The position numbers and the translations under genes are program-made. DNA of 64,000 bases, taken from NCBI GenBank assembly GCA_009773355.1, contig WRPG01000001.1, positions 1-64,000 of the forward strand, given 5' to 3'. The notes under the pieces are model-generated. The model was given only the letters and a program-made list of their open reading frames with translations. It searched no databases and was not told where the DNA came from. This DNA is from Limisphaerales bacterium (GTDB lineage Bacteria > Verrucomicrobiota > Verrucomicrobiia > Limisphaerales > SXTU01). This document shows positions 33,636-35,840 of this stretch, in pieces (the stretch's first letter is position 1; every line of letters begins with the position of its first letter).

Positions 33636-35840
33636 TCAGAGACTCCTCACGTCGTCTCCTACGTGGAAGGCGGCGAGCACGGCCTGCGCGGCAGCCGGGT
33701 CGTTCAGGCACACTGCGCCGCTGCGGATGCGGGGAACTGGCTCACCTTCGAGTCGCAGGGGGAAGCGTCCGCGCAGCTGGGCCGCGTAGCTGGGAAAGTC
33801 GGTGAAGCCCTCTGCCCGCAGCCCGGCCGCGTTCACGAGCCGGAACTTCCCGCCCGCGCCGGGCGCGACGCGCTGCATCAGCTCCAGCGTCAGCCGGCCC
33901 ATCGTGTAACGCGGGTTGATTTCCACGACGGGCTTGAGCCGCGCTCGGCCGGCGGCGTCGCGATAGACAAAGGCGTCCACGCCGACGGGACCGAGGTAGC
34001 CGGCGGCTTTTAGCTCGGTTTCCAAGGACTTGAACAGCGAGGCGAACAGCTCCCGCAGCCAAGCTGCGGCCCCGCGTTGCCCGCGGAAGCAATCCAGCAC
34101 GGCGGGCGGGACTGAGCGTGCGAAGTTCGGCGCGGCGGTGTTGGCGAGGAACTGGCCGCGCGCGTCCGTGAGCAGGCCGGTGTAGCCCAGCAGGCGCAGG
34201 CCGGCCGTCTCCATCTCCAACTGCGCGGAGAAGTCCACCACGCGCTCCAGCCACGGCTCGACGACGAGTTGCCGGCCGTTTTGCAACGACTTCTCCATCC
34301 ACCGACGCTGCGTGTCCAACAGCTTCGGCTCCCACAGCCGCAGCGCGTTGTGTCCCGCGAGGCCGAAGGCCTGCTTCACCACGACCTTGTGGTGCCCGCG
34401 CTGGCGAATCGCAGTGATGGCGGCGAGCGCGTCTTCCAGCGAGCCGACTGCCACGCCAACTTCATCCACCGAGCAAAGCGGGAGCGCACCGTCGGCGTGC
34501 CGGCGGCTTGCAGCCGCTGTCTGTGGCTGTCGTTCGTGAGCGAGCGCGTCGTGCGGGCCACCCGCAACGCGGCGACTGCAAGTCGCCGGCACAGGCGCGA
34601 CGTCCGCATTGTCCCCGCTGAGAAACGTGCGCAGAAGCTCCGCGCTCCACGCCTTCGAGTAGAGCGGGCGAATGCGCTCGTTGAAGGAGGTCTCCGCCGT
34701 GCGCGTTTCGCCGGTGAGGCTGGCGAAGAGCGGCGCGAACAACTCCACGCTGTCCTGCCCCCACGCCCACGGGCGCAGGCGGCCGAGCTTGCGCTGCGCG
34801 AGGGCGACGCAGTCCTTGCGCTGCACGAACTCCGGCAGCGGGAAACCCGCCTGCTTCAGCCCGCTGAGGAACGCGACGGCGGGCCGCTCTTCCACGAGCA
34901 CCACGTCGTCTTGCCGGCCCAGAAACATCGGCAGCGCAGCGAGGTCGTGCGCGAGCTGCGCCTGATGCTTCACCGGCGTGAAGGACTTCCCCTGAGCGAT
35001 GCGGCCCTCGGCGAACGGGTTGAAGACGAAGACACTTGGCGTGCGGCCCTTCGACTGCGCATACACGTCCAGCTCCGCGATGAATGTCGCGTCGAGTCCC
35101 GCCGCGCGCCGACCTTCGACATTAAGCGCGATGCCCTTGGCCCGCTGTGGCGAGAGGGGGAACTTGAGCTGCGTGCAGAAGGCCTCCCAATCGCTTTGCC
35201 CCGGCTGCTTCCAGCGGCGGAACCACTTCAGCCCGTAGGCGACGTGGGCGATTTCGTCGCGGTAAATCCGGTCGAGCAGCTTGGCCGACTCCGTATCGCC
35301 AGCCGTCGCAAAGCCGCGCGCGAAGTGGCGGGCGAAGTCGAGGTTAGCCTGCTCGAAGGTCAGGCTGAGGCCGGCGACGTAGTCCATCGGGCTGCTCATG
35401 CCCGACACCGCGCGCCAGAAGTAGCCGCTCACCGGCAGCTCGCCGAACGCGATGCCGCACGCGCGCATCCGGGTCAGATACCAGCGCGTGTGCTCCTGTT
35501 CGTCGCGCAGCGTTTGGAGCACGCCGCGACGGAAGGCGGGGGGCGCATCGGGAAAGCGAAGGAGCACCAGCGCCATCAGCTCCGTGGCGAGCAGCTCGTG
35601 GTTTGCGAAGAAGTGCAGCAGGCGGCCGCGCTCGCGCTCGTCGTCGAGGCGGTGGAGGCCGGGGAACTCGGCTTTGGGGGAGCCAGCGGGCTTGAAGACA
35701 AGTTCCGCCGGACGACCGGGCATCGCAGGCGCAGCGAGCGCGGAGCCGGGGCGATCGTCCGTGACGAAGGCGGGGCACTGGAGCTTCTCCTCCAGTGTCG
35801 TCGCGAAGAGCACGCGTTCGGCAAGTTCACGCAGTTCCAT
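33636..35840 (-). CDS. DUF455 ferritin-like / ATP-grasp fusion protein, 734 aa
   Basis: Residues 1-265 match DUF455, a ferritin-like four-helix family. Candidate iron ligands are HELLATE (81-87), DEQEH (113-117), Glu about 163 and DEIAH (195-199). The rest looks like an ATP-grasp ligase: KVVVKQAFGLAGHNAL (485-500) with the ATP-binding lysine and glycine loop, VVEPWLERVVDF (526-537), and the Mg-binding VEINPRYTMG (639-648). Residues 417-448 are encoded by a family A palindromic element in a probable loop. The fusion suggests a di-iron oxidation or hydroxylation coupled to ATP-dependent ligation, for instance of an amino acid or peptide; that is inference. The start at 35840 (MELRELAERV) skips an upstream stretch lying in a repeat. 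Confidence 0.82.
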   Translation of the reverse strand: MELRELAERVLFATTLEEKLQCPAFVTDDRPGSALAAPAMPGRPAELVFKPAGSPKAEFPGLHRLDDERERGRLLHFFANHELLATELMALVLLRFPDAPPAFRRGVLQTLRDEQEHTRWYLTRMRACGIAFGELPVSGYFWRAVSGMSSPMDYVAGLSLTFEQANLDFARHFARGFATAGDTESAKLLDRIYRDEIAHVAYGLKWFRRWKQPGQSDWEAFCTQLKFPLSPQRAKGIALNVEGRRAAGLDATFIAELDVYAQSKGRTPSVFVFNPFAEGRIAQGKSFTPVKHQAQLAHDLAALPMFLGRQDDVVLVEERPAVAFLSGLKQAGFPLPEFVQRKDCVALAQRKLGRLRPWAWGQDSVELFAPLFASLTGETRTAETSFNERIRPLYSKAWSAELLRTFLSGDNADVAPVPATCSRRVAGGPHDALAHERQPQTAAASRRHADGALPLCSVDEVGVAVGSLEDALAAITAIRQRGHHKVVVKQAFGLAGHNALRLWEPKLLDTQRRWMEKSLQNGRQLVVEPWLERVVDFSAQLEMETAGLRLLGYTGLLTDARGQFLANTAAPNFARSVPPAVLDCFRGQRGAAAWLRELFASLFKSLETELKAAGYLGPVGVDAFVYRDAAGRARLKPVVEINPRYTMGRLTLELMQRVAPGAGGKFRLVNAAGLRAEGFTDFPSYAAQLRGRFPLRLEGEPVPRIRSGAVCLNDPAAAQAVLAAFHVGDDVRSL
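34497..34592. repeat. Palindromic element, family A copy 2 (inside CDS)
   Basis: 96 bp with the same outer ends as the copy at 6943 (GTGCCGGCG...CGCCGGCAC) and arm hairpins CGGCTTGCAGCCG and GGCGACTGCAAGTCGCC. The spacer is longer and unrelated. It is read on the opposite strand and in another frame than copy 1 yet leaves the fusion protein open. Confidence 0.82.

Follow-up and report, generated by a model that had tools for sequence, protein, structure and literature searches.

The BesA/BesC pathway pairs an ATP-grasp ligase with a di-iron enzyme. Such partners are known to cooperate as products of separate genes in natural-product clusters: PMC13185094 describes at least 25 distinct gene clusters in which a di-iron oxidase of the heme-oxygenase-like (HDO) fold accompanies an ATP-grasp amino-acid ligase, with 1447 HDO sequences lying near a ligase and mangotoxin MboA being paired with MboC/MboD. 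For DUF455 (PF04305) a passage of PMC4520260 assigns a possible fold class only. The literature that we searched, which covers the field in part, contained no described function for DUF455, no DUF455 together with an ATP-grasp enzyme and no ferritin-like/ATP-grasp fusion.

The window, which is the whole stretch of 64,000 nucleotides from a Limisphaerales bacterium analysed here, encodes on its reverse strand a protein in which both parts are joined (Table 1). Its reading frame opens with an ATG at 35840, ends with the stop codon at 33636–33638, and M1 is nearly invariant among the relatives in a 70-sequence alignment. DUF455 scores 167.7 bits in the window protein, above its cut-off of 34.3, and is found in 70/70 aligned relatives, whereas the ATP-grasp half of the window protein hits no Pfam family above the cut-off; among the relatives PreAtp-grasp is matched weakly in 17/70 and DUF3182 in 19/70, both below the cut-off. 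The profile PF18604 (PGM1/PreAtp-grasp) does not match the window protein at E 0.1 and reaches 13.7 of the required 27.5 bits in the homologue L153, and the LdmS profile NF047900, equally without a match in the window protein at E 0.1, is seen weakly in 10/70 relatives with a best E of 1.4e-4, far below its 475-bit cut-off. A search with the MiaE profile (PF06175) gave no match in the window protein. Compared with close relatives dN/dS is low (~0.1 in the N half, 0.2–0.3 in the C half; against L009 0.067/0.62 and 0.167/0.59, respectively), so that the reading frame represents a real coding gene.

Table 1: Position of the fusion gene, its domains, predicted active-site residues and internal repeat within the window.
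Feature	Position	Strand	Basis
DUF455/ATP-grasp fusion gene	33636..35840	-	734 aa ORF, Pfam, alignment
DUF455 (PF04305) ferritin-like domain, residues 33–254	35079..35744	-	Pfam, E 4.6e-49
First predicted di-iron half-site (E82, E114, H117)	35490..35597	-	invariant in 110/110 fusions
Second predicted di-iron half-site (E163, E196, H199)	35244..35354	-	invariant in 110/110 fusions
Complete ATP-grasp ligase, residues 265–734	33639..35048	-	structural alignment to 3wvr
Dispersed palindromic repeat (REP-doublet-like), encoding residues ~417–449	34496..34592		genome DNA matches
K489, predicted ATP-binding lysine	34374..34376	-	invariant in 110/110 fusions and in 8/8 rows without the N half
E528 (EPWLER motif)	34257..34259	-	invariant
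VEINPRYTMGR, residues 639–649 (E640 and N642 predicted Mg ligands; R644)	33894..33926	-	invariant residues

A PDB sequence search gave no significant match. The folds were taken from an AlphaFold2 model of all 734 residues, built from the 70-sequence alignment, with a mean pLDDT of 91.2 and a pTM of 0.88, in which residues 412–450 are the only stretch with a pLDDT below 50. The ligase half, with a pre-ATP-grasp part at residues ~265–410 and the ATP-grasp part at ~455–734, aligns best to 3wvr_A (VIA Z 28.0, 368 residues, 3.1 Å, 17% identity) over model residues 268–734, followed in the Foldseek and VIA comparisons by 8ynd_H (Z 26.2), BesA (8yi6, 24.3) and 7r8q (23.6), and purine-type ATP-grasp enzymes rank below these peptide ligases with Z 19.6 and lower. 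At the level of the model this half is thus confirmed as an ATP-grasp fold that Pfam does not recognise. Residues 1–264 modelled alone reached a pLDDT of 93.7, and in the model the N-terminal helices 68–95, 101–127, 151–179 and 183–210 form a four-helix bundle. No Foldseek match was obtained for this domain at E <= 0.001, and its VIA Z values of 13.5–15.1 to Dps-like, bacterioferritin and aldehyde-deformylating oxygenase folds, with rubrerythrin also among the closest, are near background for helical bundles, which can match without kinship. The scores for Dps-like PA4880 (Z 15.1, 141 residues), aldehyde-deformylating oxygenase (Z 14.7, 186 residues) and a mini-bacterioferritin (Z 14.5) are tied, and because these values lie near background the ferritin-like assignment leans on the ExxH motif as well. 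Pfam and the structure model hence agree with the initial annotation, which had read the gene as a DUF455 ferritin-like domain fused to an ATP-grasp ligase and had made this reading depend on a structure prediction that returns both folds.

The residues expected for both chemistries are present without exception. Two ExxH motifs, E114-Q-E-H117 and E196-I-A-H199, are accompanied by E82 and E163, and each of these six residues is invariant in 110/110 fusions, that is the window protein and 109 relatives, with a spacing E82–E114, H117–E163 and E163–E196 of 31/45/32 in 108 of them and of 32/45/32 in the other 2. The same holds for K489, E528, D622, E640, N642 and R644 of the ligase half, of which K489, E528, D622, E640 and N642 are also found in all 8 rows that align without DUF455. 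K489 we take to be the ATP-binding lysine and E640 and N642 the Mg ligands. From this full di-iron-type set and full ATP-grasp set we infer iron and ATP binding. The ExxH residues, the ATP-grasp lysine and E640, N642 and R644 of the VEINPRY motif, read earlier from the window alone, are shared by all 110 fusions, and none of these homologues lacks a ligand. The DUF455 half is also the more constrained one, with a mean share of the commonest residue of 0.77 against 0.60–0.62 elsewhere and a dN of 0.067 against 0.167 in the C half (window versus L009), and to judge from this conservation it matters where it is present.

The disordered stretch of the model has an origin of its own. A 97-bp repeat, built from two arms of which one is the reverse complement of the other, lies in frame within the fusion gene and supplies ~33 residues, which fall into the segment of low pLDDT and correspond to a gap in ~95% of 95 alignment rows. 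It gives 56 DNA matches in its own genome at E<=1e-3, a count that takes in the repeat itself as well as partial and one-arm matches, and the same-genus loci L015, L009 and L010 carry it at the same place with 75–80% DNA identity over a 180-base query. The repeat also accounts for additional protein matches in the own genome; these were rejected as paralogues, as they cover residues ~368–486 around the repeat. Such an in-frame repeat is reminiscent of the Rickettsia palindromic elements.

Many Verrucomicrobiota, from different classes, possess the fusion. The protein is matched in 33/97 near relatives, and at E <= 1e-10 the ligase half is found in 150/320 genomes of the order and in 80/154 of the good assemblies. 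A PF04305 match of whatever strength occurs in 30/288 genomes drawn from the phylum, and all 14 strong ones (143–171 bits, window genome G000 included) are fused to the ligase, both halves having been confirmed in G000, in L119 and in the 12 loci L120–L131; in this draw no split gene pair and, among the 14 strong matches, no DUF455-only descendant was seen. In a scan of genome contigs, from which 80 of the 131 relatives were taken further, Limisphaerales, Opitutales, Pelagicoccus and Roseibacillus are among the named holders; the cultured Pelagicoccus mobilis has the fusion at L108. Records titled 'Klebsiella' and 'Akkermansia' look like mislabelled MAGs, several of which fall within the clade of the window. 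Phage and virus collections gave no match to the fusion protein, and 15 plasmid records match one half only, over 13 to 25% of the query; the fusion itself is absent from them. Stand-alone DUF455 genes lie directly 3' of a peroxiredoxin gene on Sinorhizobium and Sphingomonas plasmids (L149 5183–6495 and L151 5201–6477). Proteins of ~450–515 aa at L132–L141, in genomes of the class, with a weak DUF455 match (47–54 bits) apparently consist of two ExxH-rich helical halves; judging from the few inspected these are different ferritin-like proteins without a ligase. A Parabacteroides hypothetical protein of 402 aa (L148 5479–6687) shows a weak LdmS match (E 8.4e-8) and 27% identity to the ligase half and is devoid of DUF455.

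ORF clustering around the 80 loci revealed no conserved partner gene beyond close relatives, so that the neighbourhood survey called for by the initial annotation yielded no gene cluster and inference of a pathway from the neighbourhood was dropped. In the window the fusion gene is followed on the same strand by what reads as an M24 (Xaa-Pro aminopeptidase-like) gene, its likely ATG lying ~70 bases downstream. This gene is common to 4/80 loci (cluster c35), all of them close relatives, and other loci share different genes in small numbers. An ORF for a predicted iron/manganese transporter, VIT/CCC1-like by reading, lies 24 bases upstream of the Opitutaceae fusion frame (L105 7188–7943), and a relative of it is found near the ligase-only gene of L115.

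The ligase also occurs without the iron domain. Six genomes, G022 (L152), G077 (L153), G541 (L184), G543 (L185), G554 (L187, the same protein as L115 from a second source) and G557 (L186), carry a ligase gene of 449–520 aa that lacks the bundle, and PF04305 is absent from all six, which are drafts with a completeness of 89, 98, 98, 86, 93 and 87%, respectively. Two further loci were not counted as proven ligase-only: L097, which is cut by a contig end and was excluded from the tree, and L188, which was kept in the tree and whose match starts within ~30 bases of a contig end, its genome G553 showing only a weak PF04305 match below the cut-off. The ligase-only genes start with remnants of the N-terminus of the fusion, as in L187 with MELRDLAEPVLFATTLDDKLQSPA compared with MELRELAERVLFATTLEEKLQCPA in the fusion, where the N-terminal 24 residues equal the fusion start at 19/24 positions. 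The remnant score was equalled by none of 300 shuffles for L187, L184, L185 and L152, by 1/300 for L153 and by 5/300 for L186, the remnant of which comprises only five residues. For the ligase half, a tree of 116 rows (quick IQ-TREE with SH-aLRT) needs two changes to explain the ligase-only rows, at least two being forced by starred branches. Six of these rows group with a support of 98; L186 sits by itself at the end of a long branch (1.1), which makes its separate loss the less certain of the two. The ferritin-like part has thus probably been excised in two lineages, leaving N-terminal scars, and these scars together with the nested tree position led us to reject the ligase-only genes as ancestors from before the fusion. 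What is left behind is not decaying: K489, E528, D622, E640, N642 and R644 are all retained, and dN/dS values of ~0.24, 0.22 and 0.19 (0.127/0.53, 0.213/0.99 and 0.097/0.52, the last pair including L188), similar to those of the fused ligase half, indicate that these genes are under purifying selection. Since catalytic residues are kept under selection, the ligase would be useful alone and the iron domain dispensable in some lineages, and as these lineages deleted the iron domain and kept the ligase, it is apparently the ligase that forms the core of the enzyme. Closely after four of the ligase-only genes, on the same strand, a miaA gene is located (L152 2245–3165, L153 4322–5236, L184 3504–4394 and L185 2791–3684); miaA is near none of the 80 loci of the contig scan, and the adjacency may be plain synteny, the four carriers forming one starred subclade.

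We propose, at roughly even odds (about 0.5), that the fusion is an ATP-dependent amide or peptide ligase with a separable di-iron oxidase or oxygenase that tailors its substrate or product. The C-terminal two thirds (residues 265–734) would use ATP to phosphorylate a carboxylate and couple the activated carboxylate to an amine, yielding a dipeptide or amide together with ADP and phosphate. In the DUF455 bundle (residues ~61–260) two irons would be bound by E82, E114, H117 and E163, E196, H199, and this centre would activate O2 for the oxidation of either a ligase substrate or the ligase product, the ligase being the core and the oxidation a separable tailoring step. The O2 chemistry, the peptide or amide bond formation and the order of the steps are inferred. 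The initial annotation had already suggested that oxidation could be coupled to the formation of a bond driven by ATP. This is a plausible combination, with a parallel described in PMC13185094 for di-iron oxidases of another fold, but no conserved cluster accompanies the fusion and, because the ligase persists without any DUF455 in six genomes of probably two lineages, the fused steps are not obligatorily joined. Against tailoring counts that none of the 80 loci offers a conserved neighbour hinting at a pathway and that, if the oxidised compound were the sole substrate of the ligase, the ligase-only forms should have decayed; in addition, the stronger conservation of the DUF455 half is hard to reconcile with a mere accessory, and the ligase-only genes come from drafts. 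A more specific version is offered tentatively and is on balance somewhat doubtful: a single-chain oxidase-ligase would supply Verrucomicrobiota with a metabolite that is lineage-wide and not tied to a gene cluster, an oxidised dipeptide or amide (e.g. N- or C-hydroxylated), and some lineages would have dropped the oxidation and make the plain amide.

With bacterioferritin and Dps-like matches equal to those of oxygenases, ferroxidase or sensor roles remain among the candidate functions suggested by the model, and the bundle might be an iron- or oxygen-responsive module (ferroxidase-like, redox-sensing or peroxide-scavenging) that protects or regulates the ligase. The presence of rubrerythrin among the closest folds, the peroxiredoxin gene adjoining stand-alone DUF455 in 2/3 neighbourhoods examined and the retention of the ligase without DUF455 would all fit such a module; yet one would expect a regulator to be more variable than what is the most constrained part of the protein, and at tied Z the aldehyde-deformylating oxygenase aligns over more residues (~186 versus ~144), so that we regard this explanation as unlikely. 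Sequential action on a macromolecule, with the ATP-grasp part adding an amino acid to a protein side chain or tRNA that DUF455 then hydroxylates, would agree with a weak match of the stand-alone DUF455 at L149 to the tRNA hydroxylase MiaE (E 0.0036, below the cut-off) and with the miaA gene following the ligase in 4/6 ligase-only genomes. The lack of miaA at all 80 scanned loci and its restriction to one subclade, where it is maybe plain synteny, weaken this point, and the structures that align best are peptide ligases acting on small molecules, which leaves a macromolecular substrate very unlikely. That the halves are separable would also be expected if they had unrelated jobs and were held together only by chance and descent, but the fusion is retained across classes and was never seen here as two genes, none of the 14 strong matches is a DUF455-only descendant and the two-domain model has a pTM of 0.88, making an accidental union more improbable still.

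Cluster mining would overlook an unclustered, fused version of the oxidase-ligase partnership that is spread through a whole phylum, and such a version would suggest a novel conserved metabolite. For DUF455 the fusion provides a concrete partner reaction, and comparison with the naturally occurring ligase-only forms offers a direct way to see what the iron domain contributes. New in our analysis is this natural loss of the ferritin-like half with retention of the ligase, probably in two lineages.

Compared with described proteins, the ligase half resembles the PGM1-type ligase (3wvr/3wvq) and Streptomyces 8ynd in its whole ATP-grasp architecture (residues 268–734, Z 28.0 and 26.2), but the identity is 16–17% and those chains have 414–433 residues and no ferritin-like domain; 3wvr, entitled 'ATP grasp protein', is presumably PGM1 of pheganomycin biosynthesis. 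The L-aspartate-L-methionine ligase LdmS (NF047900), which we take 7r8p/7r8q (entry title SAOUHSC_02373) to be, shares the fold (Z 23.6), whereas the fusion has the extra N-terminal domain and its family scores far below the 475 bits of the profile. On the other side, stand-alone DUF455 proteins belong to the same PF04305 family (7.5e-96 in Sinorhizobium versus 4.6e-49 in the fusion) but have ~275 aa and no ligase. The helical bundle of aldehyde-deformylating oxygenase is like the N-terminal domain (Z ~14.1–14.7 over ~185 residues) at only 10–13% identity for the cyanobacterial rows, and the oxygenase likewise possesses two E/ExxH half-sites. Counterparts in concept are BesA (8yi6, Z 24.3) with BesC and mangotoxin MboA with MboC/MboD, where an ATP-grasp amino-acid ligase likewise goes together with a di-iron oxidase; there, however, a gene of its own within the cluster encodes the di-iron enzyme, which has the HDO fold, whereas in the fusion described here it is predicted to be ferritin-like and is part of the same chain.
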